From IMG/VR virus record IMGVR_UViG_3300042465_004530, positions 1-21,382 of that record: a DNA stretch of 21,382 nucleotides. One strand, 5' to 3'. The stretch comes from a virus. The translations under genes were made by a program, and so were the position numbers. Positions 3,085 to 18,494 of this stretch are shown here, in pieces; within the stretch, counting starts at the first letter, position 1, and every line of letters begins with the position of its first letter. Under the pieces are notes generated by a model, which worked only from the letters and a program-made list of their open reading frames with translations, did not search any database and was not told where the DNA came from.

Positions 3085-4232
3085 TCAAATACTCCTTCTA
3101 GGGTTTGTGGAACGGATTCTTTAATCCGCTCTTCTGCGATCTTCACATATTCGGGATTCAGTTCAGTCCCGATGTAGTTGCGTCCATTCTTCAGTGCCAC
3201 CACAGCAGTTGTGCCGCTGCCCGTGAACGGATCAAACACCGTGCCGTCCTTGGGGCATCCTGCAAGCACACACGGCTCAATCAGGTTCTCGGGATACACC
3301 GCAAAGTGTGCGCCCTTGTAGCCCTTCGCGTTCACCGTCCACACCGACCGCTTGTTCTTCAGCGGATTCTCTTCCCACTCCTTGCCCTGTAGCCCGTGGT
3401 GCTTGAGTTTGGGATCGGTAGTTCCATTTCGCATCTCGGTGCGGTCACGGGTTCCCCAATTACGAGCAGGTTCCTTGATTGCTTCGTGATCGTAGTAGTA
3501 CTTCGGCTTCTTGGACAGAAGGAAGATGTACTCATGCGCTTTCGTGCAGCGGTCTTCCACGCTCTCGGGCATGGGATTAGGCTTGTTCCAAATGATATCC
3601 TGCCGCAGATACCACCCGTCTGCTTGCAGCGCAAACGCTACGCGCCACGGAATGCCGATCAAGTCCTTGGTCTTCAGCCCTTTCTGATCCTTGCGATTTC
3701 CAGGAATAAAGTCTGAAGGCATACCGCGCTGACCACCTTGCGTCTGTGGGGGCGGGGCGCAGTTCTTTGCGCTCATGTACGAGTCGCCAAGGTTCAGCCA
3801 CAGCGTACCGTCATCGCGCAGGATGCGGCGCACCTCGCGGAACACTTCGGTCATCTTCTGCACATAGCCGTCAACGGTGTCCTCCTGACCAATTTGAGAA
3901 TCTACTCGTTTTGCACCACACTTTTTGCAAGAATGGTTATATTGAATTCCCTGTCCAATCTGCTCATCGTGAATACGAGTTCTTGTACTGCCATCCATTC
4001 GTTCACCAACAGCAATCATAGACTTCTTTTGCCGAAGCCTTTCTGCCATTGCAGTAGTATCAATATGATCGCATTCTATGTCGCCTCCTTCCCACGATCC
4101 TGTTCCATAGTCACGCAAGCCAAAGTACGGTGGGGATGTAATGCAAGTCTGAACGCAGCCGTCAGGCAGAGTCTTCATGCCCTCAATGCAGTCACCCGTG
4201 ATGATGCGGTAGTGTGGTTGGTGTGTGGTCAT
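3081..4232 (-). CDS. DNA methyltransferase, N4-cytosine/N6-adenine, beta class
   Basis: A 383-residue SAM-dependent DNA methyltransferase. The catalytic motif IV TSPPY is at residues 32-36 and the SAM-binding motif I DPFTGSGTT is at 334-342, so motif IV precedes motif I as in the beta class. TSPPY occurs in both m4C and some m6A enzymes, so the base is undecided. Between residues 50 and 120 lies an insertion with CDH (C54, H56) and CKKC (C102, C105), probably a zinc-binding part of target recognition. The DNA for that insertion is much more AT-rich than the flanks. No restriction enzyme is adjacent, so it is an orphan methyltransferase, probably protecting phage DNA from host restriction. The start ATG overlaps the stop of the upstream HNH gene (ATGA). 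Confidence 0.93.
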   Translation of the reverse strand: MTTHQPHYRIITGDCIEGMKTLPDGCVQTCITSPPYFGLRDYGTGSWEGGDIECDHIDTTAMAERLRQKKSMIAVGERMDGSTRTRIHDEQIGQGIQYNHSCKKCGAKRVDSQIGQEDTVDGYVQKMTEVFREVRRILRDDGTLWLNLGDSYMSAKNCAPPPQTQGGQRGMPSDFIPGNRKDQKGLKTKDLIGIPWRVAFALQADGWYLRQDIIWNKPNPMPESVEDRCTKAHEYIFLLSKKPKYYYDHEAIKEPARNWGTRDRTEMRNGTTDPKLKHHGLQGKEWEENPLKNKRSVWTVNAKGYKGAHFAVYPENLIEPCVLAGCPKDGTVFDPFTGSGTTAVVALKNGRNYIGTELNPEYVKIAEERIKESVPQTLEGVFE

Positions 4233-4948
4233 GCCATGAAATCCTCTAGTGTGGGCTTGCTCTTCAGCGGCTTGCCTGTGATCAGCGCGTCCAAATCGTC
4301 TTCACTCAATCCCAATCCTTCCGCGAGTTGTTGAACAAACTCCCATGCGCGTTCGGGACTGACCCGCTCACTATACAGGCGAAAGTGTTCGGGTGCAAGA
4401 GCAATCGCTTCGGGAAACAGTTTATCTTGCTTGGACACATTTTCCCTGCCATCAAGTATTCTCAAATTGACGGGGTGATGTATTCCTCCGTGAGTGATTG
4501 GAAGAATATGGTCTATGTGATACTCTCGTCCTGTCTCACTTTGGAGTTGTTGGCGAGTGCGTTCCAACAAGAGCATTTTCTCTTTTTCGTTGGCAGTCAA
4601 AGGAATTGATGCATTTTTTTGTTTGCATCTCCGTCTTCTTTTCAGTTCATGGTCTAGGTCACGATTTCGTTCACGCCAAGCCTTGCTTGTTATCGCTCTT
4701 CGTTCACGATTTCGTTCACGCCAAGCCTTATTTGTTGTCGCTTTCCGTTCACGATTGCGTTCAAGCCAAGCCTTGTCTACTATAGATATTCGTTCACGAT
4801 TCCGTTCACGATAAGCCTTGCTTGTTGTCGCTTTCCGTTCACGATTGCGTTCATACCAAGCCTTATTTGTTGCCGCTTTCCGTTCACGATTGCGTTCAAG
4901 CCAAGCCTTGTCTAGTATCTTTTTTCTTTCAGGGTCTTTATATGCCAC
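4229..4948 (-). CDS. HNH endonuclease with repeat-rich N-terminus (copy 1)
   Basis: A 239-residue free-standing HNH endonuclease. The nuclease core lies near residues 143-175: YHIDHILPI (H144, D146, H147), then GGIHHPVNLRILDGREN with N161 and N170, then K174. Residues 15-104 are five full 15-residue repeats of the type AWxERNRERKAxTxK plus a sixth degraded one, strongly charged and probably helical; they may contact DNA. The start is GTG at 4946-4948, preceded by a G-rich GGGGGTGAGG that can act as a ribosome site. The C-terminus ends TLEDFMA and its TGA overlaps the methyltransferase ATG. A longer paralogue lies at 5355-6218. Such genes are usually selfish homing endonucleases in T4-type phages; the target is unknown. 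Confidence 0.9.
   Translation of the reverse strand: MAYKDPERKKILDKAWLERNRERKAATNKAWYERNRERKATTSKAYRERNRERISIVDKAWLERNRERKATTNKAWRERNRERRAITSKAWRERNRDLDHELKRRRRCKQKNASIPLTANEKEKMLLLERTRQQLQSETGREYHIDHILPITHGGIHHPVNLRILDGRENVSKQDKLFPEAIALAPEHFRLYSERVSPERAWEFVQQLAEGLGLSEDDLDALITGKPLKSKPTLEDFMA
4637..4906 (-). repeat. In-frame 45-bp tandem repeats in HNH copy 1
   Basis: Six consecutive 45-base units, each coding for 15 residues of the form AWxERNRERKAxTxK. The first five are well conserved and the sixth (4637-4681) is degraded. On the plus strand the repeated core reads like 'cgttcacgatt(t/g)cgttcacgccaag'. Unit boundaries fall at A-W codons. Confidence 0.85.
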
Positions 4949-4962
4949 ACCTCACCCCCGCA

Positions 4963-5358
4963 TCAGGCAATGTCGCCGTATCCCTTGCCGCGTATAAAGA
5001 AGTTCTCTTCGTGCCCTTCAAAACCAAAGCATTCCCGTGCGTAGTCAAGAATGATCTGCTTGTCAAACTTGTTGCAGGAGTACACATCAAGCGTGATGAA
5101 CCGCTTTGGCTCCATTGAGTGAATCTGAATGCCGCTCTCAATGAGTGGAACCCAACCGCTCACCCCTGCCTTGTCGGGGTACAGTTCCGTGCCGTGGTTG
5201 GTTGGACCATGCATGACTACGGGCTGACTCATGCGGGTCATGCCGATCTTGTCCACCACGCGCTCAAGAAAGCGGTAGTGCAGTTCCAAGTCATCGGCTG
5301 CACCGATGCGGCAGTTGTACATATCAAGGTAATACGAATATCCGAATGGCTTGCTCAT
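4963..5358 (-). CDS. speD: S-adenosylmethionine decarboxylase proenzyme
   Basis: A 131-residue AdoMet decarboxylase of the short prokaryotic type. The family matures by self-cleavage before a serine that becomes a pyruvoyl group. Here the motif is ESGIQIHSMEP, aligning with ESHxSIHTxPE of bacterial SpeD. S75 (pyruvoyl serine), H80 (processing) and C95 in DVYSC are all kept, while the histidine right after the serine is glycine (G76). The product, decarboxylated SAM, feeds spermidine synthesis. No spermidine synthase is seen, so host enzymes would be needed. The gene sits between the two HNH genes and its ATG overlaps the stop of HNH copy 2. Phage speD genes are known in cyanophages; the purpose (DNA charge neutralisation or host metabolism) is inferred. 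Confidence 0.85.
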   Translation of the reverse strand: MSKPFGYSYYLDMYNCRIGAADDLELHYRFLERVVDKIGMTRMSQPVVMHGPTNHGTELYPDKAGVSGWVPLIESGIQIHSMEPKRFITLDVYSCNKFDKQIILDYARECFGFEGHEENFFIRGKGYGDIA

Positions 5359-6218
5359 GTGAAAAAATCCTCTAGTGTTGGCTTGCCCTTTAGTGGCTTG
5401 CCTGTGATCAATGCGTCCAAATCGTCTTCACCCAATCCCAATCCTGCTGCTAGTTGTCGCACAAACTCCCATGCTCGTTCAGGACTGACCCGCTCACTAT
5501 ACAGACGAAAGTGTTCGGGCGCAAGAGCAATCGCTTCGGGAAGAAGTTTGTCTTGCTTGGACTCGTTTTCCCTGCCATCAAGTATTCTCATATTGACGGG
5601 GTGATGTATTCCTCCGTGAGCGATTGGAAGAATGTGATCTATATGATACTCTCGTCCTGTCTCCCTTTGGAGTTCTTGACGAGTTCGTTCTAAAATCACA
5701 ATCTGTTGGGTTTCATTTGCGGTCAAATAAACTGATGCATTTCTTTTTCTGCATCTTCGTCTTCTTACTTTTTCATTTACTAAATCACGATTGCGTTCGA
5801 TCCAAGCCTTTTCTATTTTTCTTGTTCGTTCACGATTTACTTTACGATAAGTTACAATCCGTTCACGATTTCGTTCACGCCAAGCCTTGTTTTTTGCCGC
5901 TCTTCGTTCACGATTGCGTTCATTGTAAATCTTATCTCTAGCGGCTTTTCTTTCACGATTGCGTTCACGACAAATCCGAACCTTTTCGGGATTGTTTTTA
6001 CGCCAAGCCTTGTTTGCTGCCGCTCTTTGTTCACGATTTCGTTCACGCCAAGCCTTGTCTATTGCCGCCTTTCGTTCACGATTGCGTTCACGACAAATCC
6101 TAACTTTTTCAGGATTGCATTCATACCAAGCCCTGTTGGTTGCCGCTATTCGTTCACGATTTCGTTCACGCCAAGCCTTTATATAAGCCCTCTTTTTTTC
6201 AGGATCTCTGTATGCCAC
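5355..6218 (-). CDS. HNH endonuclease with repeat-rich N-terminus (copy 2)
   Basis: A 287-residue paralogue of the HNH protein at 4229-4948. The nuclease part is nearly identical: YHIDHILPI (H192, D194, H195), GGIHHPVNMRILDGREN (N209, N218), K222, and the tail TLEDFFT. The N-terminal repeat part is longer and mixed, with units of 15, 13 and 11 residues. A compound segment containing NPEKVRICRERNRERKAA occurs twice. The start is GTG at 6216-6218, with almost the same 16 bases upstream as copy 1. Its TGA overlaps the speD ATG. Both copies therefore sit neatly between genes without breaking them, as expected of homing elements. Copy 2 follows the lysozyme-like gene, whose stop codon falls inside the shared upstream bases. 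Confidence 0.9.
   Translation of the reverse strand: MAYRDPEKKRAYIKAWRERNRERIAATNRAWYECNPEKVRICRERNRERKAAIDKAWRERNREQRAAANKAWRKNNPEKVRICRERNRERKAARDKIYNERNRERRAAKNKAWRERNRERIVTYRKVNRERTRKIEKAWIERNRDLVNEKVRRRRCRKRNASVYLTANETQQIVILERTRQELQRETGREYHIDHILPIAHGGIHHPVNMRILDGRENESKQDKLLPEAIALAPEHFRLYSERVSPERAWEFVRQLAAGLGLGEDDLDALITGKPLKGKPTLEDFFT
5763..6176 (-). repeat. In-frame mixed-length tandem repeats in HNH copy 2
   Basis: Ten consecutive units coding for 15, 13, 13, 15, 13, 13, 15, 15, 11 and 15 residues, all built on (A-W-x)-E-R-N-R-E-R-x-A. The 15-13-13 block appears twice in a row, which suggests duplication of a 41-residue (123-bp) block within the gene. The last unit is degraded. Confidence 0.8.
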
Positions 6219-6221
6219 GCC

Positions 6222-6653
6222 TCACCCCCGCATCGCCTTCACGATCTTATTCCAATACTTCAGAGTAGCGGTGCGCGTGTGTCCCTTTGGACCGCCGTTG
6301 TGAATCCGCGCCAACTGCTCAACGGTCGCGCCCTTCGGGGCGTACCGCTTCCAATACGCACGAATGATCTTTTCGGCATATGCCTTGTTCATGCAGTCCT
6401 TGTACTCCCCGCCGATAGTCTTGTCAAACTCAACGGCATCCTGCCAGTACTCGCGCCAAATCTGATAAGGACCAATTGCCTTACCGTCATCACCAACGAG
6501 GTTCTTGCCACGGTTGGACTCCACAGTGTACATGGCATCCAACAGATTGTCAACGGTGTAGCACTCAACAGGCATGGGCAGCACAGGGTACGGCTTGCCC
6601 TTGAAGTCAGCGGGAACACCACACAGAATAGTAGCGAGAATCACAGCAAACAT
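6222..6653 (-). CDS. Lysozyme/transglycosylase-like cell-wall hydrolase, exported
   Basis: A 143-residue protein. It opens with a short hydrophobic stretch (MFAVILATILCG), possibly a signal peptide or anchor. The core has MYTVESNRGKN (E45 a likely catalytic acid), GDDGKAIGPYQI (residues 54-65), YWQDA, and ARIHNGGP near residues 115-122. This set is typical of SLT-type transglycosylases and destabilase/i-type lysozyme-like domains: E in 'ESxxG', a 'GPYQI' strand and a late 'NGGP'. It would cut peptidoglycan, for lysis or at entry. No holin or spanin is adjacent. The start ATG lies 13 bases inside the end of the UV endonuclease gene, with AAAGG upstream. Its last codons and stop lie in the sequence also found upstream of HNH copy 1. 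Confidence 0.75.
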   Translation of the reverse strand: MFAVILATILCGVPADFKGKPYPVLPMPVECYTVDNLLDAMYTVESNRGKNLVGDDGKAIGPYQIWREYWQDAVEFDKTIGGEYKDCMNKAYAEKIIRAYWKRYAPKGATVEQLARIHNGGPKGHTRTATLKYWNKIVKAMRG

Positions 6654-7570
6654 GGGGTATGAGCCTTTCTGTACTCAAGAAGTGCCAAGTCCTTTGCCTT
6701 GGCTTCAATCATCACATCGTACTCCACCGTGTCCGACAGCAGAGGAATCTCTTCACGAATGTAGTCCGAGTGGGCTTGCGGTCGCGCTCCCGCCTTGGAC
6801 TCCGAGTAGTGTACCTTGGGAATTTCACGAAAGCCGTCCCATGTGCTGAATGCCATGTCTGCTGCCTCAAGCAGAGACTCCCGATGACAGAAGCGGTGGT
6901 GGTGGATATCCAACACCAACTTCACAGGGCAGTGCTTTGCCACTTGGGTGTACAGTTCCGTCATGCTCCACATTGAGGGCTTGTCATCGTTCTCAAGGGT
7001 AAGCCGCCGCTTGATGCTGTCGGGAAGTCGGGAGAACTCGCGCAGGAAGCGATCAGCCGTCTTGTGCTTGTCGCCGTACACGCCGCCCATGTGGATGTTG
7101 ATGGCAAACTCGTCACCGTAGCCCAAGATGTCGGGGATGAGCGAGTGCATAGCCAAAGACTTCACACTTTTCTCCACCGTGTGAGGATCGGGCGAGGCAA
7201 TGCAAGTGTACGGACCAGGATGGCACGACAGGCGCATCTTGTTCTGCTTGGCGTACCAACCCGCCATGATCAGCGATGCGCGGATGGAGGCTTCGTGTTC
7301 AGGCAGCAAGTCCGTGATCTCGTACCCAAGGGTGGGGTGATCCATGAACGGAAACATCCCGCTGCCGATACGGAAGAACTTGATGCCGTTCGCCACATTC
7401 CATTCGAGAATTGGGAGCAGATCGGCGGCGTTCCGCGCACCAAGTTCTCCCACACGCTCCAACGAAAAGCGATCCATCCGCAGGGTGCGGTCGGTGAACA
7501 GCCGATCCTTGGGCTTGCGCCCTGCTGCAAGGGAAAGGTTCTGACAGGCGTAGCCAAGGTGTCGGATCAT
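6641..7570 (-). CDS. uvsE: UV damage endonuclease (UvdE/UvsE family)
   Basis: A 309-residue TIM-barrel metallo-endonuclease that nicks DNA 5' of UV photoproducts. Family signatures are LGYACQNLSL at the N-terminus, KFFRIGSGMFPFMDHP (residues 64-79), LSCHPGPY (H117), INIHMGG (H160), LTLENDD (E193), VLDIHHH (D221, H223, H224), KVHYSE (H254), AHSDYI (H267) and MIEAKAKD (E289). The metal-binding His, Glu and Asp pattern of the characterised Thermus enzyme appears complete, and the length is normal. A phage using it could repair UV lesions in its genome independently of the host, which suits sunlit water; that ecological point is inference. The ribosome site before the ATG at 7570 is weak (AGAG). 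Confidence 0.93.
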   Translation of the reverse strand: MIRHLGYACQNLSLAAGRKPKDRLFTDRTLRMDRFSLERVGELGARNAADLLPILEWNVANGIKFFRIGSGMFPFMDHPTLGYEITDLLPEHEASIRASLIMAGWYAKQNKMRLSCHPGPYTCIASPDPHTVEKSVKSLAMHSLIPDILGYGDEFAINIHMGGVYGDKHKTADRFLREFSRLPDSIKRRLTLENDDKPSMWSMTELYTQVAKHCPVKLVLDIHHHRFCHRESLLEAADMAFSTWDGFREIPKVHYSESKAGARPQAHSDYIREEIPLLSDTVEYDVMIEAKAKDLALLEYRKAHTPCLL

Positions 7571-9840: not shown

Positions 9841-11075
9841 TACTTTCTCCGCTTCTTGAAACTCTTGATCTTTTGCTCTCCGCTAATATTTAGCAAAGAT
9901 GATGCGGTGGGCGCAACATTTAGAGTCTGCGGTGTCTGCATCTGCTGATTTTGCGCTGCACCAATCTGCTGCAATTTTTCCATATATGCTGCATGATTCT
10001 TTTGATTGCGCTCCACTTCACTCTCTGGCAGTCTGTTCTGCTTCAGGAGGGCTTCACAGGCAGCAAAACCGCTCTTGTAGTCATGCACATAGAACGCAGT
10101 GGCAGCGAGTTCATCCAATGCCATCCACTTGTACACATTCGTGTCAATGAACAGGATGTCGTGTTGTGGGTACGGGATCTGGGCGGCTTCCTTCGCAAAA
10201 AGGTAAGCCGCCCGTGGTCGCCCGTTCATCCGAAGAAAACGCGCTATGGCATGGAGAGGTTCGGCACGGCAGGGTCGGTAGTCGTATGCATCAAGGAACT
10301 TCTGCTGCACAGTAGTCCACGGCGACTCCTTGGAGATTTCGCAAAGGGCAATGCGGAACAGCGAGTAGTAGCACTCCTCTTCCCATCCACCCATCTCAAT
10401 CCGCTTGTAGTACGCTTCAATAGCCTTATCCCACTGCTGCGAGTCAAAGTACGACTGTGCAAGGTAGAACTGATAGCGAGAGTTGGTGGGATCTGTTTTC
10501 AGTGCTTCTAGGAGAAGTTCTGCGTCCTTGGAGTACTTTTCAACAGGGGTAACTCCACCATTGCGCTCTTGTCCGAGTGTACGCGCCTCAAGATAGTAGT
10601 CTCCCTCAATCTTTTCTTGACGAAGTGGCTGCTTTTCACAGTGTGCATATTCATGAAGTACGCCAACATACTTCCAACCGATGCCCGTCTTGAAAATTTG
10701 GTTGCGCCACCAAACGCAGTTTTCGCGTCCGCACTTAATGGCGTAAGCGTCAGCGGTGAGGTTCTTGTTGTAGGGGTACTTGAATCCGCCAACTACGCGG
10801 TCATCCGCATCAATCATCCACGCATAGTCCGCCTTGCCAGCACACAGATCAAGTGCTTCGGTGCGGTTGTGTCCAAAGTTCACCCACGGACGCTCAATCA
10901 GTTCGCCTGGAATTCCCTTCTCGGCAAAGTACTTCCTGATGTACTCCTGCGTTCCGTCCGTGGAGCCTGTGTCCACGATCACCCAATAGTCAATATGAGG
11001 ATGGATGGAGTCCAAGCACTCATGCAGGATCTTGGTTTCGTTCTTGACGATCATAGAGAGGCATACTGTAGACAT
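9840..11075 (-). CDS. Family 2 glycosyltransferase with TPR region
   Basis: A 411-residue protein. The GT-A domain starts at the N-terminus: STVCLSMIVKNETKILHECL, then WVIVDTGSTDGT (residues 31-42) and MIDADDR (87-93), where DAD is the metal- and nucleotide-sugar-binding motif. Residues about 185-250 hold TPR-like helical pairs (LLLEALKTDPTNSRYQFYLA, FDSQQWDKAIEAYYKRIE). The C-terminal 40 residues are Gln/Ser-rich and end in a basic KSFKKRRK. GT2-TPR proteins like this often modify protein or surface glycans. It lies directly before a virion-protein-like gene and follows a possible late promoter, so virion glycosylation is a fair guess. The acceptor and donor are unknown. AAGGAG precedes the ATG at 11075. 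Confidence 0.85.
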   Translation of the reverse strand: MSTVCLSMIVKNETKILHECLDSIHPHIDYWVIVDTGSTDGTQEYIRKYFAEKGIPGELIERPWVNFGHNRTEALDLCAGKADYAWMIDADDRVVGGFKYPYNKNLTADAYAIKCGRENCVWWRNQIFKTGIGWKYVGVLHEYAHCEKQPLRQEKIEGDYYLEARTLGQERNGGVTPVEKYSKDAELLLEALKTDPTNSRYQFYLAQSYFDSQQWDKAIEAYYKRIEMGGWEEECYYSLFRIALCEISKESPWTTVQQKFLDAYDYRPCRAEPLHAIARFLRMNGRPRAAYLFAKEAAQIPYPQHDILFIDTNVYKWMALDELAATAFYVHDYKSGFAACEALLKQNRLPESEVERNQKNHAAYMEKLQQIGAAQNQQMQTPQTLNVAPTASSLLNISGEQKIKSFKKRRK

Positions 11076-11097
11076 TGTTCACGATCTCCTTGTAGGG

Positions 11098-12000
11098 TTA
11101 TTTATGCTCCGCAATCCAGTCTTCAAGACGAACTTTAGGAGTCCATCCTATTTCATTCCGTGCTTTTGAAGCATTGGCTAGGCTCAATTTTGATTCTGCT
11201 GGTCGTGGAGGAATGAACGCAATTTCACCACCCATGAGTGCAGCAATTTCATTTATGGAATAGTTTCTGCCTGTGCCAATGTTGTAGACATGACCCCATT
11301 CGTAGTCCTGTGGCTGCGTCATGGTTGCTGCTCGGAGGTTTGCCTCCACCACATCACCCACATAAGTGAAGTCACGCCGTTGAGTGCCGTCACCAACTAT
11401 GGTCATCGGTTCACCCGCCGCTCGCTGACGCAGGAAAATACCGATCACGGGAGCGTATTGCCCACGAAGAGGCTGACGCTCTCCGTACACATTGAAATAG
11501 CGGAAAGTCACGGTTTCCATACCATACAGTCTTGCGTACATTCTGCACAACTCTTCTCCACCCACTTTACTCACAGAATATGGGTTGAGGCAGTCTGTCG
11601 GCATGGACTCTACCATAGGAGGAGTGTTCTTCAGACCATACGCTGCTGATGTGGACGAGTATATGAATCTTTTCACGCAACACACTCGCGCACACTCAAG
11701 AGCAGTCGCTGTCCCCACGACATTGTTCTCAATTGCCTTGAGTGGGTCTTCAATGCTTGGTTGAATGCGCGCTTCCGCAGCAAGGTGAAACACTGCGTCT
11801 TGACCCTCGTACAGTCTGCGTACCATCGTATAGTCACGAACATCATACTTGTAGTTACGAGCCTGCGGATTCCAATAGAACTGCTCGTTGGAGTCCGCAG
11901 ATTCGTTGTCTATCACGGTGACTTCGTGACCATCTGCAATCAAACGATCCACGAGATTTGAACCAATGAATCCTGCTCCACCAGTTACAAGTGCTTTCAT
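11098..12000 (-). CDS. NAD-dependent nucleotide-sugar 4-epimerase/dehydratase (SDR)
   Basis: A 300-residue extended short-chain dehydrogenase. The NAD-binding TGGAGFIG is at residues 6-13, the acid after strand 2 is D31, and the catalytic part has SSTSAAYG (115-122) and YSVSK (Y141, K145). FRYFNVYGERQ (167-176) and RRDFTYVGDVVEA are typical of UDP-glucose or UDP-GlcNAc 4-epimerases and related dehydratases. The product is probably an epimerised NDP-sugar for the glycosyltransferases nearby; the exact sugar cannot be read from sequence. It is the last gene of the sugar module, and its stop codon overlaps a possible late promoter. A GGAG site precedes the ATG at 12000. Its G+C is lower than that of the downstream genes. 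Confidence 0.9.
   Translation of the reverse strand: MKALVTGGAGFIGSNLVDRLIADGHEVTVIDNESADSNEQFYWNPQARNYKYDVRDYTMVRRLYEGQDAVFHLAAEARIQPSIEDPLKAIENNVVGTATALECARVCCVKRFIYSSTSAAYGLKNTPPMVESMPTDCLNPYSVSKVGGEELCRMYARLYGMETVTFRYFNVYGERQPLRGQYAPVIGIFLRQRAAGEPMTIVGDGTQRRDFTYVGDVVEANLRAATMTQPQDYEWGHVYNIGTGRNYSINEIAALMGGEIAFIPPRPAESKLSLANASKARNEIGWTPKVRLEDWIAEHK
11099..11106 (-). promoter_or_regulatory. Possible T4-type late promoter
   Basis: The minus strand reads GCATAAATAACC here, one base from the T4 late promoter TATAAATA; cyanophage late promoters tolerate variation at this first base. It lies 23 bases upstream of the GT2/TPR start (11075), leaving room for a short leader with AAGGAG. The same bases code for the last residues and stop of the 4-epimerase gene (H-K-stop), so it could be chance. 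It was the only 'NATAAATA' I found just upstream of a gene. Confidence 0.35.
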
Positions 12001-12015
12001 AATAATCTCCAGCGA

Positions 12016-12462
12016 CTAATCAATCTTTGATAATGTGTTGGATGTTGAATACCCAACTATCTTTGGAAAAAACACAACGGCTTTGGAGAAAGACGATCCA
12101 ATCACGGTTTTGGTCTTGTATTCATCACCTACTACCATGACCTCGGGCTTGAGAATGCCAATTACTTTTTCCAATTCTTCTGGAGTGTCGTATATGTAGA
12201 CACGATCAATCCCTTTCATAGACAGCAAAAATTCAGCCCTGTCGTTTTCGGTGTTTATGGGTCTGCTCGGTCCTTTCATTTGTTTCACTCTACGATCAGA
12301 ATCTATTCCCACAAAAAAAGAACAGCCTTTATCTTCTGCTATTTTCCTGCAATGCTCAAACAGACGAACATGACCCACATGAAGTATGTCGTAGCATCCA
12401 TTAGTCCACACCACACCCCCATCTATCACGGCAGAAGTGGTATTTGCATAGAATACTTTCAC
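12016..12462 (-). CDS. rfaE2: D-glycero-beta-D-manno-heptose 1-phosphate nucleotidyltransferase (HldE C-half)
   Basis: A 148-residue nucleotidyltransferase matching the C-terminal half of HldE. TNGCYDILHVGH (residues 20-31) carries the HxGH motif (H28, H31). VGIDSDRRVKQMKGPSRPIN (51-70) and RAEFLL follow, and GYSTSNTL (137-144) resembles the HldE 'G.STT' signature. In bacteria this half adds AMP from ATP to heptose 1-phosphate, giving ADP-heptose. Related cytidylyltransferases make CDP-glycerol or CDP-heptose, so the nucleotide is not certain, but the neighbours HldD and HldE kinase favour ADP. The start is GTG at 12460-12462, overlapping the HAD stop (GTGA). The two HldE halves are separate genes here, with HldD, cupin and HAD genes between them. 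Confidence 0.85.
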   Translation of the reverse strand: MKVFYANTTSAVIDGGVVWTNGCYDILHVGHVRLFEHCRKIAEDKGCSFFVGIDSDRRVKQMKGPSRPINTENDRAEFLLSMKGIDRVYIYDTPEELEKVIGILKPEVMVVGDEYKTKTVIGSSFSKAVVFFPKIVGYSTSNTLSKID

Positions 12463-12758
12463 GCAGTCTTATCCCATTCTGCAACCGATATAGCCTTATC
12501 ATCTACAAAGAGGTCTACATCAGGCTTTCCCATTATGATGCGATGATGCTTTACTCCAAAATCGTGCATCTGCTTCACGGTAAACTCATAAAGATCCCTG
12601 CCAGAAGCCATACCTCTTGCGGTGAAAAGCATTATCATGTGTCCTTCATCGTACAGGCGATTCACACGATCTATTCTGTGGTGTATGGGCGTTGAGTTTT
12701 CGTAGTCGCTGCCCACGGTGTGTACTAGAGTGTTGTCAATATCAAATGCGTATCTCAT
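12459..12758 (-). CDS. Small HAD-family sugar phosphatase
   Basis: A 99-residue minimal HAD phosphatase. Motif I is DIDNT (D6 nucleophile, D8), motif II is FTARG (T46), motif III is GKPD (K78) and motif IV is DD at 86-87. It resembles the short HAD proteins of capsule and LPS clusters ('DIDNT...TARG...KP..DLFVDDK'), not typical GmhB, which is about 190 residues. Sitting between heptose kinase and heptose nucleotidyltransferase genes, it could supply the missing 1,7-bisphosphate 7-phosphatase step; this is inference. The ATG overlaps the stop of the cupin gene (ATGA). Confidence 0.8.
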   Translation of the reverse strand: MRYAFDIDNTLVHTVGSDYENSTPIHHRIDRVNRLYDEGHMIMLFTARGMASGRDLYEFTVKQMHDFGVKHHRIIMGKPDVDLFVDDKAISVAEWDKTA

Positions 12759-13126
12759 CCCTGACTGTCTCCTGGAGCAACACGGTAACTGTCGTTGTCA
12801 AAGTGCTGCGTAGAAACTTCAAATATTGTCGCGTCTTCTAGTGCTTCCAATTGGTGTGGATAGCCTGGCAGATTATGAATTACATCACCCACTTCAAGAA
12901 CTTCCCAATACTGCTTTGCGGTAGCAGGATCAATCCAAATGAGTTTGAATCGTCCCCGCGCAACATACCATGTCTCATCCTTCAGCAGATGGTAGTGCAT
13001 ACTGAACTTCTTGCCCGTTGTGAAGTTCAACAACTTGCCGCAGTACTTCTCGTTGTTAGCAAAGATGATCTCGTTTCCCCAACCCTTTGGTACGATCTGT
13101 GATTGCAGTTTCTTGCTGTTCATCAT
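12755..13126 (-). CDS. Single-domain cupin, sugar isomerase/epimerase-like
   Basis: A 123-residue cupin. Motif 1 fits the pattern G(X)5HXH(X)4E(X)6G exactly, from G38 through H44, H46 and E51 to G58. Motif 2 contains PGYPHQLEAL with H91. It resembles the cupin part of mannose-6-phosphate isomerases and small cupins of sugar clusters, so a metal-dependent sugar isomerase or binding role is likely; the substrate is unknown. I chose the ATG at 13126 because AAAGGA at 13133-13138 stands six bases upstream. A GTG at 13141 overlaps the HldD stop but lacks a ribosome site, and would add five residues. It is embedded among heptose genes and might replace an isomerase step, but this is speculative. 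Confidence 0.8.
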   Translation of the reverse strand: MMNSKKLQSQIVPKGWGNEIIFANNEKYCGKLLNFTTGKKFSMHYHLLKDETWYVARGRFKLIWIDPATAKQYWEVLEVGDVIHNLPGYPHQLEALEDATIFEVSTQHFDNDSYRVAPGDSQG

Positions 13127-13132
13127 ATACAG

Positions 13133-13138
13133 TCCTTT
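13133..13138 (-). promoter_or_regulatory. Ribosome binding site of the cupin gene
   Basis: AAAGGA on the minus strand, six bases before the ATG at 13126. It favours this start over the GTG at 13141. Confidence 0.65.
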
Positions 13139-14058
13139 CACATATACGAATGGTTTACCAAGTAATCAAAGTACTTCTGTACTCCGCTCTCAAGACTAGT
13201 AAAGGCATCTGCCCAACCCAAAGAGTGTATCGCAGTCGTGTCTGCCTTCGTGTTCCGCTGATATTGTGCTTGCAGGTCTTCGGGCATGGGAATGTACTCC
13301 TTTTCGCCGCCGCCAAATGACCGCATCACACAATCGGCAACGCTTTCAAAACTCTCTGCGGTGCCTGTGCCAAGATCATACACTCCTGCTCGGGGATTTT
13401 CAAACGCATTGTACGCAACTTTGCAAACATCTTCAACATAGATGAAGTCGCGTCTGTAGTCCGCAGAGTTCTCAAATATCTTGATCCTCCCTGTCTGCTT
13501 CAATTCGTGATACCACTTATACACCACAGACGACATTCTGCCTTTGCGTGGTTCGTGCGGACCATAGACATTAAACAAGCGAAAACACATAGAATCCTTT
13601 GATATCTCTATCTCGCTATCCAATTTTGATTTTGCATACAGATTGACTGGTCCGTTTCCATTACCATACACAGCAGCAGAAGAACTAAACACCATAGGAA
13701 TGCCTCTGCTTTTGCAGACAGAAGACAAAATGCGAGTATAGTCCACATTATAATGTTGTATACGATCAGAACTCTTTTCTAATGTGTTAGATATTGCTCC
13801 AAAGTGAAACACTGCCTTGATGTCTTCTGTTGGAAGTATCATGTCTCTATCACATACAATCGGATAGATAGAAGAAAATTTACAACTCTGTAAATTTGAA
13901 TAGTCTACCCTGCTGGCATACCCACGAACAAAATCAACATCCACATCATCAATAGCAATGATATTATGAATATCCAACGAATTTAAATACGATATCATCC
14001 TGCTTCCTATGAAGCCCTGTGCGCCAGTAACAACAATAAAACCATTTTCAGCAGACAT
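13138..14058 (-). CDS. hldD: ADP-L-glycero-D-manno-heptose 6-epimerase
   Basis: A 306-residue extended SDR. The NAD(P) motif is TGAQGFIG (residues 11-18) and the catalytic part is SSSAAVYG (125-132) with YAKSK (Y141, K145). FRLFNVYGPHEPRKGRMSSV (159-178) and the end MPEDLQAQYQRNTKADTTAI are close to HldD ('NVYGPxExHKGxMASV', 'MPxxLxxxYQxxTxAD'). HldD converts ADP-D-glycero- to ADP-L-glycero-D-manno-heptose, the LPS inner-core precursor. The start ATG at 14058 follows GGAGAG at 14063-14068. A TTG at 14070 would extend it by four residues and is less likely. It lies right after the heptose kinase gene, supporting the assignment. The DNA is AT-rich: 20 of 60 bases at 13741-13800 are G or C. Confidence 0.9.
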   Translation of the reverse strand: MSAENGFIVVTGAQGFIGSRMISYLNSLDIHNIIAIDDVDVDFVRGYASRVDYSNLQSCKFSSIYPIVCDRDMILPTEDIKAVFHFGAISNTLEKSSDRIQHYNVDYTRILSSVCKSRGIPMVFSSSAAVYGNGNGPVNLYAKSKLDSEIEISKDSMCFRLFNVYGPHEPRKGRMSSVVYKWYHELKQTGRIKIFENSADYRRDFIYVEDVCKVAYNAFENPRAGVYDLGTGTAESFESVADCVMRSFGGGEKEYIPMPEDLQAQYQRNTKADTTAIHSLGWADAFTSLESGVQKYFDYLVNHSYM

Positions 14059-14062
14059 GATT

Positions 14063-14068
14063 CTCTCC
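14063..14068 (-). promoter_or_regulatory. Ribosome binding site of hldD
   Basis: GGAGAG on the minus strand, four bases before the ATG at 14058. It decides against the TTG at 14070. Confidence 0.6.
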
Positions 14069-14076
14069 AATATTGA

Positions 14077-14814
14077 TTAGATCACGGTTACTCCACGGTG
14101 CTTCACTACTTCGGAAGCACAGGAGTTTGCAAACTTGATAGAGTCGTATATGTCCTGCGTGTCTAGAAATTTGACACAAAGAGCAGCCATGAAACTATCT
14201 CCCGCACCAGATGTGTCCTTCACCTCTGAGCGATTCACGGCATATCTCTTACCCTGAAATTCGCAACCATCACCACCCATAGTATGGATTATCTTTGACT
14301 CTAACTTATTCGTAAGAAACGGCTTTGAATTCTTGTATTCGTAGTCATTGATTTTAATATACTTGGCATCGGATGCCCAGTCACCAAGGACTTTTTTTGT
14401 ATCCAAGAAAACACACGGATGCTGTTCACAAATATGCATGATGTCCCGCTCTGTCAGGAACCCCTTGTTGTAGTCTGATACAATTACAAGATCATAATTC
14501 AAGTTCAGATCATCCATATTGATTTCAGAAATAGTAGAAGGACTATCTACTCGCATGAACATATGATTTGTATTTTGATGAACATACCTGGTTTTTGTTA
14601 TGCTCAACCAGTTCGGGTTGGTGAAAAGATCACAGGTTTTGTATCTCATTATGTTGCGTTGAACATTCGCTGCCATGCCTGCATTTTCTGTTTGATTTAC
14701 TATGTTTAGTACTGGAACAGGAGCATCAGGACATAGCCGATGACAGTCGCAATATACAAATACATCACGGCAACTGTCTCCTATTACTAGAATATCTGAT
14801 TTTGCCGTTTTCAA
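14077..14814 (-). CDS. rfaE1: D-glycero-beta-D-manno-heptose 7-phosphate kinase (HldE N-half), shortened
   Basis: A 245-residue PfkB-type sugar kinase. The opening ILVIGDSCRDVFVYCDCHRL and CPDAPVPVLN (residues 28-37) are typical of HldE/RfaE1, followed by NAGMAANVQRN (residues 44-54). The catalytic DTSGAGDSF (200-208) has the base D206. The kinase turns heptose 7-phosphate into heptose 1,7-bisphosphate. It is about 70 residues shorter than the kinase half of E. coli HldE; the main loss is between NVQRN and TKTRYV, where the usual 'GxxGxDxxG' stretch is missing. The start is TTG at 14814, overlapping the E1-beta stop (TTGA), with AAAGGA six bases upstream. No frameshift is evident, so this is probably a compact phage version. 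Confidence 0.85.
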   Translation of the reverse strand: MKTAKSDILVIGDSCRDVFVYCDCHRLCPDAPVPVLNIVNQTENAGMAANVQRNIMRYKTCDLFTNPNWLSITKTRYVHQNTNHMFMRVDSPSTISEINMDDLNLNYDLVIVSDYNKGFLTERDIMHICEQHPCVFLDTKKVLGDWASDAKYIKINDYEYKNSKPFLTNKLESKIIHTMGGDGCEFQGKRYAVNRSEVKDTSGAGDSFMAALCVKFLDTQDIYDSIKFANSCASEVVKHRGVTVI

Positions 14815-15842
14815 ATCGTATCCTTTGGACCAAAATTCAGTTCATCAAATGATAGTTCATATGATAGCGGCTGCTTGCCAACCATCTCCAAAATAGCATC
14901 AGCGATAGAAGCCTTGGTCGGGTAGTAATGCTTTGTAAGATGGTGCGATGTAGGAACGGGTACATTCGGAGCAGCCAACTTCACAGGAGGGCATTTGAGT
15001 GATGCGAAAGCATCAATACAAACGCGGGATACAATTTCAGACCCGATATTGAATGCGTCATTGCAAGTGTCCACTGTGATAAGTCTTCCTGTCTTGCGGA
15101 CGGATTCTACGATTGTTGGATAGTCAACAGGATTGACGCTTACTAGATCAATCAACTCAACGCTAACGCCAGATTCTTTGATCATCTGAATTGCCTTCAT
15201 GGAATCAATAAATCCATCTGCATAGGCGACAACGGTCACATCGGTTCCTTCTTTTGCAACTACACTCTTTCCTAGAGGCTTTGTATAATACTCTTCAGGA
15301 ACCTCCTGCTTTATGTTCTTCACCCACAGATGCTCCAAGACAACAACTGGATTGTTGTCTTCTATGGCAGCAGCAATCAATCCCTTTGCCATAACTGGAG
15401 TTGATGGGATTACGCATTTCAGACCAGTGGTATTTCCAAACATGGAATATAGTGATTGTGAGTGCTGTGGTCCAGTTCCCCATTGCCTTCCAACTAGAAG
15501 ACGAATCACTACAGGAACAGGATTGTCTCCACCAAAACTATAGTTCCACTTTGCTGCTTGAGTCACAATAGCATCAATACCAAACAATCCAAACTCAACG
15601 CGATCATGCTGTATGATCGGACGAAGCCCATTGATTGCTGCTCCAACACAAGATAAGGTAGTAGAAAACTCGGAGTTTGGTGTGTCGAACACCCGATCAG
15701 GGTAGATATTCTTTAGACCAGGAGCAGAGACATAGTTTGCTCCAAGCCCCATGATGTAAACACGAGGATCGCGCTGAATTGATTGAGAAATTGCCTCTTT
15801 GATGGCATCTCCATAACTAATGACACGATTATTCGTAGACAT
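14811..15842 (-). CDS. TPP-dependent E1 dehydrogenase, beta subunit
   Basis: A 343-residue transketolase-like E1-beta protein, as in pyruvate, acetoin or branched-chain 2-oxoacid dehydrogenases. DTPNSEFSTTLSCVGAAING (residues 53-72) carries the TPP-activating glutamate (E58). QAAKWNYSFGG and PVVIRLLVG follow, then GPQHSQSLYSMFG with the conserved H127, and VIPSTPVMAKGLIAAAI. The C-terminal ferredoxin-like half is present. With the alpha subunit next to it (genes overlap by 14 bases) it should form an alpha2-beta2 enzyme. No lipoyl E2 or E3 is in the window. The role in a sugar cluster is unknown: it could transfer a two-carbon unit to a sugar or make an acyl donor. An AGAGGA site stands upstream of the ATG at 15842. 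Confidence 0.9.
   Translation of the reverse strand: MSTNNRVISYGDAIKEAISQSIQRDPRVYIMGLGANYVSAPGLKNIYPDRVFDTPNSEFSTTLSCVGAAINGLRPIIQHDRVEFGLFGIDAIVTQAAKWNYSFGGDNPVPVVIRLLVGRQWGTGPQHSQSLYSMFGNTTGLKCVIPSTPVMAKGLIAAAIEDNNPVVVLEHLWVKNIKQEVPEEYYTKPLGKSVVAKEGTDVTVVAYADGFIDSMKAIQMIKESGVSVELIDLVSVNPVDYPTIVESVRKTGRLITVDTCNDAFNIGSEIVSRVCIDAFASLKCPPVKLAAPNVPVPTSHHLTKHYYPTKASIADAILEMVGKQPLSYELSFDELNFGPKDTI
14821..14826 (-). promoter_or_regulatory. Ribosome binding site supporting a TTG start
   Basis: AAAGGA on the minus strand, six bases before the TTG at 14814 of the heptose kinase gene. It lies inside the last codons of the E1-beta gene and points to coupled translation. Confidence 0.6.
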
Positions 15843-16797
15843 GGGTGTATAGATCCTCTTTCACGGGGTCTGGTTCAATCTGGCACTTCGCAATCGAATC
15901 TCTTATTTCCTGTAGAACTGTCTGTTCGATTTCATCCAATACTGGTGCTTCTATTCCTGCCGAAATCAAATGATCGCGCATCTTCTTTACAGGGCAAGCC
16001 TTCAATCGGTTTTCGTAAGTATCGTGCTGATCTCTGTACCAAGAAGTCTTATCCTTATCGTCATATAGAGGAGAACTATGAGAACGATGACGGAATACAT
16101 TGCAATGAAGAATAGAAGGAATATTGGTTTCTTTTATGCTCTTGATTGCTTCAGCACAGTTTTCAGATACGCTGAAGAAATCATTTCCATCAGCCTTGAA
16201 GTAGTTCGCACCTAGTCCTTTTACTATAGTGGGAACATCATATTTTTCTGATCGCCTGTCCCGCTTTACACTATTGATAGAATAGTTGTTGTCTTCAATA
16301 ACCACAAGCAGTGGAAGTTTGAACAGACTTGCAAGATTGATGCTTTCGTAAACGACTCCCTCTTCAGAAGCACCATCTCCCAAAAAGCAAACAACAATAT
16401 TATCTGTGTGCTGAAACTTTTCTGCAAATGCCATTCCACTTGCAAGACCGATTGCGCTTCCTAAAATAGGAGTACTGCCAATGAAATTGACAGAACGATC
16501 AATCATGTGCATTGATCCGCCTTTGCCACGACAACAACCCGTCTTCTTGCCAAGCATTTCGGCAACCATTCCGTGAAGACTGCCACCCTTTGCCAAGTAG
16601 TGACCGTGTGAGCGGTGATTGCCGATCATCTTGTCTTCGTGTTTGAGGTTGCTTGCGACTCCAACAGCGATAGCCTCCTGACCAACATACAGGTGAACTA
16701 TGCTGAAGATTTTGTTATCAATGTAATGCTGTGCCATCTGCTCTTCAGCAGAATGTATCAGAAACATCTTGCGATATGCATCAATCAAGTTGTCCAT
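15829..16797 (-). CDS. TPP-dependent E1 dehydrogenase, alpha subunit
   Basis: A 322-residue E1-alpha protein. It has the start pattern YRKMFLIHSAEEQM, GQEAIAVGVA (residues 39-48), NHRSHGHYLAKG (60-71) and GKGGSMHM. The TPP-magnesium motif runs from GDGASEEG (G140, D141) to EDNNYSI (N170, N171). The later RHRSHSS resembles the active-site 'R.H.HS' loop. All the cofactor residues I can check are kept, so it is probably active. It is encoded just before its beta partner and four bases after the MDR dehydrogenase gene. AAGGA precedes the ATG at 16797. It is similar to acetoin and pyruvate dehydrogenase E1-alpha, but sequence alone does not give the substrate. Confidence 0.9.
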   Translation of the reverse strand: MDNLIDAYRKMFLIHSAEEQMAQHYIDNKIFSIVHLYVGQEAIAVGVASNLKHEDKMIGNHRSHGHYLAKGGSLHGMVAEMLGKKTGCCRGKGGSMHMIDRSVNFIGSTPILGSAIGLASGMAFAEKFQHTDNIVVCFLGDGASEEGVVYESINLASLFKLPLLVVIEDNNYSINSVKRDRRSEKYDVPTIVKGLGANYFKADGNDFFSVSENCAEAIKSIKETNIPSILHCNVFRHRSHSSPLYDDKDKTSWYRDQHDTYENRLKACPVKKMRDHLISAGIEAPVLDEIEQTVLQEIRDSIAKCQIEPDPVKEDLYTHVYE

Positions 16798-16800
16798 TGT

Positions 16801-17817
16801 TCACATCCTTATCATTATGCGTCCAGCCTTGCCACTACGGAGAACATCTATAGCAGTATTTATCTCGTCAAGCGTGTACTCATGCGTGATGATGCTTCTG
16901 ATGTTCAACATTCCTGCCTTGTGCAATTTTACATACCGTGCAATGTCTTCGTTGGGTGATGTCTTTCCACCTTGGGTAGCCTTGATGAACTTTCCATTTC
17001 CGCCAAACAGTGTGCTGGCATTTGGAATGCTGACAGACTGACCAGGTTTTGGTTGACCAACCAAGACATATCTTCCTCTGTCGGATAGGTACTGCATAGT
17101 CGTGGCAATTGTATCAGGGTTTCCTGTTGTGTCAATGATGACATCAACCTTTTGTCCCTTCATTTCGTCAATCATTCTGTTTGAATTGACGAAAAGACTA
17201 GCACCAGCAGTCAGTGCCAGTTGTTGCTTGTCTTCTGAAATATCCAGTCCAATGATAGGATAGGCACTAGCCATCCTTGCTCCTTGAATCAGATTCAAGC
17301 CGACTCCACCGCATCCAACAATCATAATGCTTTCACCAAACTTGAGATCCACCTCATTGTTGATTGTTCCGAGAGCAGTAGTCAGTCCACAGCCAAGCAA
17401 GGCACAAAGATATTCGTCCGTATCAGAAGGGACAGCAGTCAGTCTATTCTCCGAAACAATAGAGTATTCGCTAATTGTCGTGACTTTACCGCTTGAAATG
17501 GTCTTTCCGTCTACGATATATGACGGAAAAGGAGCCTCAATTCCCGCACCAACTCTCCAGTGCATCACAACTTTGTCTCCAACCTTGACGCGAGTAACGC
17601 CTTCTCCGACTTCTTCAACAATACCACACCCTTCGTGACCAAGAAGATGTGGAAGGAACTTTTCGTTTCCTTTCAATCCAGCGATTTCTTGCAACTGCGC
17701 TCCACACAATCCACTTACTAGAACCTTCACCTTGACTTGACCGACCTTGAGGGGGGTCAAGTCCACATCTTTAATTACTAGAGGAGAATTGATTTGCTGT
17801 AGTACGGCTGCTTTCAT
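16801..17817 (-). CDS. Zinc-type medium-chain alcohol dehydrogenase (MDR) without structural zinc lobe
   Basis: A 338-residue MDR. Catalytic zinc ligands appear as SGLCG (C38), GHEGCG (H61, E62) and C143. The cofactor-binding VGCGGVGLN is at residues 167-175 and D192 at the end of the next strand suggests NAD(H). The domain order is like class III alcohol dehydrogenases (SGKVTTISEYSIV), but the four-cysteine structural zinc lobe normally after 'GDKVV' is absent and replaced by HWRVGAGIEAPFPSY. It probably oxidises or reduces an alcohol or keto group on a sugar or side-chain precursor together with the E1 enzyme next to it. The ATG overlaps the stop of the upstream GT9-like gene (ATGA). Confidence 0.88.
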   Translation of the reverse strand: MKAAVLQQINSPLVIKDVDLTPLKVGQVKVKVLVSGLCGAQLQEIAGLKGNEKFLPHLLGHEGCGIVEEVGEGVTRVKVGDKVVMHWRVGAGIEAPFPSYIVDGKTISSGKVTTISEYSIVSENRLTAVPSDTDEYLCALLGCGLTTALGTINNEVDLKFGESIMIVGCGGVGLNLIQGARMASAYPIIGLDISEDKQQLALTAGASLFVNSNRMIDEMKGQKVDVIIDTTGNPDTIATTMQYLSDRGRYVLVGQPKPGQSVSIPNASTLFGGNGKFIKATQGGKTSPNEDIARYVKLHKAGMLNIRSIITHEYTLDEINTAIDVLRSGKAGRIMIRM

Positions 17818-18494
17818 GTGAAGATTTCCTTTACATTCCTGTATAGAGGTATTTCAAAAACGGGTGGATTGCGGCTGTAGCGATGCATGAAAAGTTGATC
17901 GTTCAATCCCATGTTGTCTGTCATAAACCCAAAACAACTTTCCATACAATGGACTTCTTTTGCTCGTTCAACCAACATAGCATATCCAAATATGGTGTTC
18001 GTCAATCCTATTTCAGGGCGAACGATTCGGACATCGTGCGGCAATCTGGACGGATTCAATTTGTAACGATTGTCATCGTGAACAAAGATGTACGGTTCAT
18101 TTATTTGATAGTGATCGTAGATTTTTTGTTCCAGTTCGGGGTCACGATCACATCGGAAAGAATCCCACTTTGCAGACAAAGAAATGCCGTGTTGCAAGTA
18201 GAAGTTTTCCTCAAAACTTTTGTTCATGTCGATCCAGTTGAATCCAATGATGTAAAGTCTATCAGCAGATCCAAACCGATTTATGAAATCAATCGCACCA
18301 GAATCATCGCACTCTACGAACTTGAGATTCGTCAAGTCTCGGTACATATACGAAACAGAACCAACATTGTGCGGTTTGACAAACATGATGTACTCTTGTT
18401 CGGGAACAATAATGCTACGAACAAGCCCGTTGCATACAACATGATCACCAAGACCCATATGCTGATATATGAAACGAGTATTTTCAAAGTTCAT
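17814..18494 (-). CDS. GT9/heptosyltransferase-like protein
   Basis: A 226-residue protein. The N-terminus, YQHMGLGDHVVCNGLVRSII, has the 'GLGD...NG..R' shape seen in heptosyltransferases and related GT-B proteins. A later stretch, AKEVHCMESCFGFMTDNMGL, resembles the GT9 sugar-nucleotide loop ('DSG...H'), although the typical residues are not exact. It is shorter than true heptosyltransferases (about 320-350 residues). The cluster makes ADP-heptose, so a heptose-transferring role would fit, but this is inference; it could be another transferase or a non-catalytic relative. It overlaps both neighbours by four bases (ATGA). It lies at the border between higher G+C upstream genes and the AT-rich sugar module. 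Confidence 0.5.
   Translation of the reverse strand: MNFENTRFIYQHMGLGDHVVCNGLVRSIIVPEQEYIMFVKPHNVGSVSYMYRDLTNLKFVECDDSGAIDFINRFGSADRLYIIGFNWIDMNKSFEENFYLQHGISLSAKWDSFRCDRDPELEQKIYDHYQINEPYIFVHDDNRYKLNPSRLPHDVRIVRPEIGLTNTIFGYAMLVERAKEVHCMESCFGFMTDNMGLNDQLFMHRYSRNPPVFEIPLYRNVKEIFT

Follow-up and report, generated by a model that had tools for sequence, protein, structure and literature searches.

A conserved dehydrogenase and thiamine pyrophosphate enzyme module in phage sugar clusters suggests a stand-alone carboligase for surface sugar synthesis

Introduction

Why would a phage carry both E1 subunits of a 2-oxoacid dehydrogenase in the middle of a sugar cluster? The question arises from IMG/VR virus record IMGVR_UViG_3300042465_004530, of which positions 1 to 21,382 were analyzed. 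This window is a linear virus fragment of 21,382 bases, and its DNA polymerase is closest to those of T4-like cyanophages (49% identity). A zinc-type medium-chain dehydrogenase/reductase (MDR; 17817 to 16801, 338 aa) is followed by an E1-alpha subunit (16797 to 15829, 322 aa) and an E1-beta subunit (15842 to 14811, 343 aa). Next comes a short PfkB kinase (14814 to 14077) that is kin to the heptose-7-phosphate kinase (RfaE domain I/HldE). The MDR and E1-alpha genes are separated by a 3-nt gap, E1-alpha and E1-beta overlap by 14 nt, and E1-beta and the kinase overlap by 4 nt.

An initial sequence-only reading had placed this trio inside a phage sugar cluster. Indeed, the open reading frames (ORFs) nearly abut or overlap and lead into heptose-type genes, and the minus strand holds every gene of the trio and of the sugar set. 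We propose, with about even confidence, that the trio is the core of a phage pathway that makes an unusual surface sugar in activated form. The E1 pair would be a stand-alone thiamine pyrophosphate (TPP) carboligase that adds a two-carbon unit to a keto-sugar.

Both E1 subunits and the dehydrogenase retain catalytic residues

E1-alpha, the TPP-binding (PP) half of the putative carboligase, matches Pfam PF00676 (E1_dh) at 9e-59, and its closest relative among solved structures is the E1-alpha of pyruvate dehydrogenase (PDH). E1-beta combines the pyrimidine (Pyr) half (PF02779, Transket_pyr, 4e-18) with a transketolase-C domain (PF02780, Transketolase_C, 1e-26). The TPP and active-site residues, said in the sequence-only reading to be kept in both subunits, are intact by alignment with PDH E1 structures. 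E1-alpha keeps the TPP motif GDG140-142...DNN as well as H64 and H240, and E1-beta E58 and H127 align with the catalytic Glu and His of E1-beta structures. From established E1 biochemistry, we take these conserved residues to be the known catalytic residues of PDH E1. The NHRSHGHYLAKGG motif of E1-alpha is invariant in 11 phage and bacterial relatives, and the GRQWG(N/T)GPQH motif of E1-beta is specific to its own lineage. The pair thus has the domains and the intact catalytic site of an E1 component. The YerE-type enzymes that branch lipopolysaccharide (LPS) sugars (yersiniose) differ, being single-chain TPP flavoproteins of the decarboxylase superfamily with an unrelated architecture. We excluded a YerE-like identity because the phage proteins consist of E1_dh and transketolase-type domains.

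The MDR is the first gene of the core module, and its predicted task is to form or reduce the keto group of a sugar. It has the PF08240 and PF00107 domains (ADH_N/ADH_zinc_N) and matches phrog_2640 (E=6e-92). Among 90 aligned MDRs, the catalytic-zinc ligands are almost invariant (C38 in 89, H61 in 89, and C143 in all 90). All of them have the GxGGxG motif, and residue 192 is D in 83 sequences and E in 7. Position 192 and the Rossmann motif suggest that the cofactor is NAD(H).

The E1 pair belongs to a lineage without E2

As the sequence-only reading had stated, there is no E2 or E3 within the window, which is a fragment of the phage genome. Related genomes gave no sign of an E2/E3 pair either: neither the E2 domain (PF00198) nor a lipoyl domain (PF00364) was found in eight related phage records, including the complete genomes of S-SM2 and P-TIM68.

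One genome scan recovered the same MDR-E1-alpha-E1-beta order in Ca. Liptonbacteria, Ca. Kaiserbacteria, bacterium E14, and SAR86. The order is thus present in bacteria as well as in phage loci. Further bacterial loci came from searches of about 780 genomes. We scored 65 loci with an E1-beta profile and checked their flanks for E2, over about 15 kb for most loci. E2 was present in the flanks of 0 of 24 loci scoring at least 299 bits versus 38 of 41 loci scoring at most 289 bits, in a count where single absences on a few short contigs are weak. The three low-scoring loci without E2 were two sugar clusters and one contig end. In an IQ-TREE E1-beta tree, all 38 E2-linked rows fall together with the contig-end row in a single clade supported at 100/100, and the E1-beta of the window lies outside it. 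The phage, candidate phyla radiation (CPR), and SAR86 rows form a separate clade, also with 100/100 support, and the window's E1-beta is within a clade of 12 E2-free rows. It does not group with any E2-linked E1. Moreover, neither an E2 catalytic domain nor any lipoyl domain occurs in five CPR genomes that have the MDR-E1-alpha-E1-beta order; positive controls were detected.

The SAR86 (L092) and E14 (L091) loci have the trio beside GmhA, GmhB, and HldE-type genes and a FabG-like short-chain dehydrogenase/reductase (SDR). Many of the remaining E2-free pairs adjoin HldE-like, GmhA-like, or GalE-like genes, and the named isolates with such pairs include Azospirillum oryzae and Solidesulfovibrio magneticus plasmids.

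Could the pair nevertheless be an ordinary E1 that feeds the pyruvate or acetoin dehydrogenase complex of the host, through host E2 and E3, as an energy boost in infection? The family is that of 2-oxoacid dehydrogenase E1, and the pair shares its fold, TPP site, and catalytic His and Glu with the E1 of PDH and acetoin dehydrogenase (AcoAB). Acetoin operons also combine an MDR with an E1 pair. However, the window pair has no E2, E3, or lipoyl domain alongside and belongs to a separate clade, outside the E2-linked one, with relatives in genomes that lack any E2 or lipoyl domain. The NCBIfam PDH-E1 models match strongly but far under their curated equivalog cut-offs (291 versus 394 bits for alpha, 235 versus 321 bits for beta). 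In related phages the pair is replaced in place by transketolase-type enzymes, as described below. We regard an ordinary E1 role as highly improbable, and the E1 pair is very likely independent of E2.

Most of the best E1 matches in a phage database (Acinetobacter MD-2021a, Listeria, Enterococcus, Staphylococcus, and Pseudomonas Y12) lacked annotation or phage context, and the one inspected, L006, proved to be a normal acetoin operon complete with E2 and E3. These matches were therefore not used as phage evidence.

Two further arrangements were seen among the E2-free loci. In five Pseudomonadota loci (L131, L132, L129, L136, and L185), the E1 pair occurs with a reversed HldE-like fusion, in which the nucleotidyltransferase precedes the kinase, and with SIS, radical S-adenosylmethionine (SAM), and DegT genes in varying combinations; this is possibly another sugar pathway. 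In L100, L104, L105, and comparable loci, the E2-free E1-beta lies within open frames some 700 aa long, which suggests natural single-chain E1-alpha/E1-beta fusions in some Pseudomonadota.

The dehydrogenase, a TPP enzyme, and heptose-type activation genes form a conserved phage module

An E1-beta scan of viral contigs returned only two loci, and hence the MDR was used as the query, which biases the survey toward loci that carry this MDR. The scan gave 80 loci, and the window, L001, and L002 brought the number to 83 (L063 and L002 are on the same contig). Clustering at 90% MDR identity sorts these 83 loci into 44 groups. In every locus the MDR is followed by a TPP enzyme: 81 were scored together, L041 was added, and L014 has a partial copy at the contig end. 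No E2 was found in any of the 83 loci. Where more than 5.5 kb of downstream sequence was available (68 loci), the kinase was present in 67, the nucleotidyltransferase in 61, the HldD-like gene in 59, the cupin in 53, and the haloacid dehalogenase (HAD) phosphatase in 51. The complete genomes of Synechococcus phage S-SM2 and Prochlorococcus phage P-TIM68 also carry this set. The MDR, the TPP enzyme, and the heptose-activation genes are a conserved module in marine T4-like phages.

The sequence-only reading had considered the set undescribed in phages. The set is not unique to this phage, nor is the arrangement absent from databases: relatives are widespread, and the two cultured cyanophages have the module under generic names with a different TPP enzyme. 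As in the window, the LPS clusters of S-SM2 and P-TIM68 contain the MDR (64% and 59% identical, respectively) and a TPP enzyme, then a kinase, an epimerase, a nucleotidyltransferase, and a HAD phosphatase. Unlike in the window, their TPP enzyme is a fused PP-Pyr protein rather than an E1-alpha/beta pair, and it is annotated only as "transketolase central region."

A 2010 study drew attention to the LPS clusters of S-SM2, S-SSM7, and P-SSM2 and left their function open (PMC3037559). Among the ideas of Sullivan et al. was that cyanophage LPS genes might be stuffer DNA (PMC3037559), and the trio might likewise be inactive passenger genes or packaging filler. However, the frames are open, the catalytic residues are invariant across distant relatives, the gene order is fixed, and a TPP enzyme is present in every informative locus. 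We give filler hardly any credence. A global ocean gene catalogue deliberately filtered out contigs with such LPS islands (PMC11360552). Our literature searches, with subscription papers outside their scope, turned up no description of either the MDR-TPP-heptose module or an exchangeable TPP slot. The classes of chemistry are known; the genetic setting is new.

Three TPP enzymes exchange in one slot

The TPP enzyme that follows the MDR comes in three forms. Form A, the E1-alpha/E1-beta pair, is present in nine viral loci. Form B, in 55 loci (54 plus L041, with the partial copy of L014 in addition), is a fused PP-Pyr protein of about 400 aa without the transketolase-C domain; it is a single chain of 381 to 402 aa in the isolates S-SM2 and P-TIM68. 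The GDG motif, the Glu of the Pyr domain, and the TH histidine are invariant in form B. Its model has a transketolase/DXS fold with PP and Pyr domains only, and the Foldseek match gives the fold class only (TM of about 0.63 to whole transketolase, with a high root mean square deviation from the domain arrangement). Form C, in 18 loci, is a split mini-transketolase of 245 plus 160 aa with no third domain, nearest to the Carboxydothermus split transketolase and to DXS. A methyltransferase-like gene may separate the MDR from the TPP enzyme in loci of form C. For S-SM2, ADO97573 (in PMC4053976) was considered as the fused TPP enzyme and rejected, as it is zwf; the fused protein is ADO97531.

The forms switch at least 10 times on the MDR tree, and at least 6 of these switches are forced by supported branches. 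Over the 7.6 kb that lead to the end of the MDR, the form B locus L058 matches the form C locus L076 at about 79% DNA identity; the TPP genes then differ, and identity of about 79% resumes at the kinase start for 2.7 kb. The TPP gene is also swapped in place between L067 (form C) and L068 (form B), whose MDRs are 95% identical, and between L002 (form A) and L043 (form B), whose MDRs are 88.5% identical. In all three pairs the swap is confined to the TPP gene between kept flanks, which suggests local recombination at the gene borders.

Transketolase-type enzymes have no lipoyl E2 partner. The exchange of the E1 pair with such enzymes therefore argues that the pair is a stand-alone carboligase. 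Judged from sequence, the pair probably does perform carboligation. We suggest, tentatively, that the TPP enzyme may be a swappable diversification cassette beside a constant MDR and constant activation genes. A changed carboligase could vary the two-carbon branch on a surface heptose and alter the glycan of the host or virion; a change between acetyl and hydroxyacetyl is one conceivable example.

The surrounding genes resemble heptose activation and transfer

The kinase that follows E1-beta matches TIGR02198 (1e-30) and phrog_8133 (8e-87) and has the GAGD motif. Beyond it is an HldD-like SDR (13138 to 14070), a relative of ADP-glyceromanno-heptose 6-epimerase (TIGR02197, 3e-70, under the equivalog cut-off). 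It is followed by a small cupin (12755 to 13141; PF07883, 4e-6; phrog_7851), possibly a sugar isomerase or epimerase, and a small HAD phosphatase (12459 to 12758; TIGR01689 EcbF-BcbF, 8e-8; phrog_1238), a GmhB analogue. The next gene encodes an RfaE domain II-like nucleotidyltransferase for sugar-1-phosphate activation (12016 to 12462; TIGR02199, 7e-29). A GalE-like nucleotide-sugar epimerase/dehydratase (11098 to 12000; TIGR01179, 4e-50; phrog_540) is accessory, with homologues in many relatives.

Directly upstream of the MDR lies a mini GT-B protein that is heptosyltransferase-like (17814 to 18494). It has no Pfam match. The best Foldseek matches of its AlphaFold2 model (pLDDT 84) are GT9, the heptosyltransferase TibC, and E. 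coli heptosyltransferase II, at a TM of about 0.5. The upstream neighbors of the trio are glycosyltransferase and methyltransferase genes. Because of the heptose-type genes downstream and the transferases and heptosyltransferase-like model upstream, we read the region as one for activating and transferring a heptose-type sugar.

Relatives of the HldE-type kinase and nucleotidyltransferase, the HAD phosphatase, and the HldD-type epimerase are all present, with scores under the equivalog cut-offs, as in the ADP-heptose pathway (GmhA, HldE, GmhB, and HldD). The phage module differs from that pathway in having no clear GmhA, a short and divergent kinase, and an extra MDR, TPP enzyme, and cupin. 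There is no relative of the GmhA (SIS) isomerase in the window, and only weak matches (37 to 40 bits) occur in 3 of the 83 viral loci. GmhA could come from the host.

The missing isomerase bears on a second explanation, in which the TPP enzyme is a DXS/transketolase-like ketose-phosphate synthase. It would join a two-carbon unit to an aldose-phosphate to make a ketose backbone. The cupin, kinase, HAD phosphatase, and nucleotidyltransferase would then yield an activated aldose, and the MDR would interconvert ketone and alcohol. Forms B and C fit this scheme, with their transketolase/DXS fold and no third domain, as does a module that lacks a GmhA-type isomerase yet has the later heptose-type steps. 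Several Pseudomonadota E1 pairs also adjoin SIS, kinase-nucleotidyltransferase, and SDR genes. However, the SAR86 and E14 loci already have GmhA, GmhB, and HldE-type genes and need no new backbone source, and the host should provide sedoheptulose-7-phosphate and GmhA. We consider a ketose-phosphate synthase possible but doubtful.

Some names in L004, L005, and PHROG entries are misleading: the HAD protein is called "phosphoheptose isomerase," the cupin "cysteine dioxygenase," and the nucleotidyltransferase "bifunctional heptose kinase/adenylyltransferase." The E1 proteins of L001 are 98% identical to those of the window, but L001 has three extra genes between kinase and epimerase (10718 to 13001; glycosyltransferase-like, methyltransferase-like, and SDR) that are missing in the window. 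Therefore, the tailoring part of the cluster changes fast.

Elsewhere on the minus strand of the window, two related proteins (4229 to 4948 and 5355 to 6218) are very similar in their C-terminal halves and carry long, arginine-rich repeats (RERNRERKA...) at the N terminus. The first is endonuclease VII-like, and a SAM-decarboxylase-like ORF (4963 to 5358) lies between them; the pair resembles a duplicated homing endonuclease pair. The minus strand of this T4-like phage fragment also encodes a homologue of the UV-damage endonuclease UvdE (6641 to 7570; PF03851, 1e-56).

A proposed sugar-branching pathway and its precedents

In the pathway that we propose, the MDR would first act on a sugar intermediate, of the heptose type or a related one, and oxidize one of its hydroxyls to the ketone. 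A 2-oxoacid, probably pyruvate, would be decarboxylated by the E1 pair, which would join the resulting two-carbon unit to the ketone to give a branched or extended sugar. The kinase, HAD phosphatase, nucleotidyltransferase, and epimerase would activate the branched sugar, and neighboring glycosyltransferases would attach it to a glycan. In L091, L092, and P-TIM68, the FabG-like SDR that adjoins the set could reduce an acetyl branch, like the paulomycin aldo-keto reductase.

Precedents come from antibiotic sugars. In aldgamycin and kibdelomycin, E1-type (alpha-KADH2) enzymes join pyruvate-derived acetyl to keto-sugars, as tested by knockout and feeding or, for KbDH, in vitro, and E1-type enzymes are implicated in the same branching in avilamycin, kosinostatin, and paulomycin (PMC12247030, PMC4425429, PMC4802897, PMC4753412). 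By their published descriptions, AviB1/AviB2, Pau11/Pau12 (Plm8/Plm9), and KbDH-alpha/beta are, like the phage set, E1-alpha/beta pairs in a sugar cluster, and they add a pyruvate-derived two-carbon unit to a keto-sugar (PMC12247030, PMC4425429, PMC4802897). In miharamycin and amipurimycin, split transketolases are proposed to add hydroxyacetyl after an oxidoreductase has made the ketone (PMC12247030). As split genes that follow an oxidoreductase, they resemble form C, but form C has no third domain and the window carries form A. Forms A and C of the phage slot are thus the same two kinds of enzyme as in the antibiotic precedents.

The same precedents bear on a third explanation, in which the E1 pair converts a 2-oxoacid to a free aldehyde, and reduction by the MDR then yields an alcohol for a small substituent. 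The MDR family includes aldehyde reductases, and the MDR and TPP genes are strictly linked. However, among the precedents, enzymes of the E1 and transketolase types carry out carboligation or acyl transfer (PMC12247030), and the lineage is tied to sugar-activation genes. We consider a decarboxylase-reductase couple improbable.

The sequence-only reading had offered a stand-alone carboligase with a dehydrogenase that makes or reduces a keto group. The E2-free clade, the genomes without E2 or lipoyl domain, and the transketolase-type swaps give this core idea good indirect support, and the particular reaction and product are putative. As in E1-type sugar-branching systems, the E1 pair of the window lies within a cluster for sugar biosynthesis and has no E2. 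An MDR with intact catalytic-zinc and NAD motifs is always upstream of the TPP enzyme and is the predicted ketone maker. By analogy, the acceptor may be a keto-sugar and the reaction specifically a branching one, which we hold to be evenly poised. The substrate, product, pyruvate donor, and final glycan are all inferred.

Several points weigh against the proposed pathway. A 4,6-dehydratase, not an MDR, makes the ketone in most of the known cases; the AviB, Pau, and KbDH pairs belong to antibiotic clusters where this is usual, whereas the phage and CPR pair sits beside an MDR and heptose-type activation genes. The phage module has no obvious GmhA, so the TPP enzyme could supply the backbone instead. 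In addition, the CPR genomes are metagenome assembled and may be incomplete.

Implications

Our analysis cautions that viral "transketolase" and "pyruvate dehydrogenase" genes should not be read as central carbon metabolism. If the proposed pathway is correct, it would mark out, within bacterial sugar clusters, a large branch of E1 enzymes that lack E2. The natural exchange of three kinds of TPP enzyme at a single operon position would offer a test of donor and acceptor specificity. The pathway would also give a function to the long-noticed LPS clusters of cyanophages. Widespread marine phages would then use a carbon-joining enzyme to make branched or extended sugars for themselves, by chemistry so far described mainly from antibiotics and a few O-antigens.

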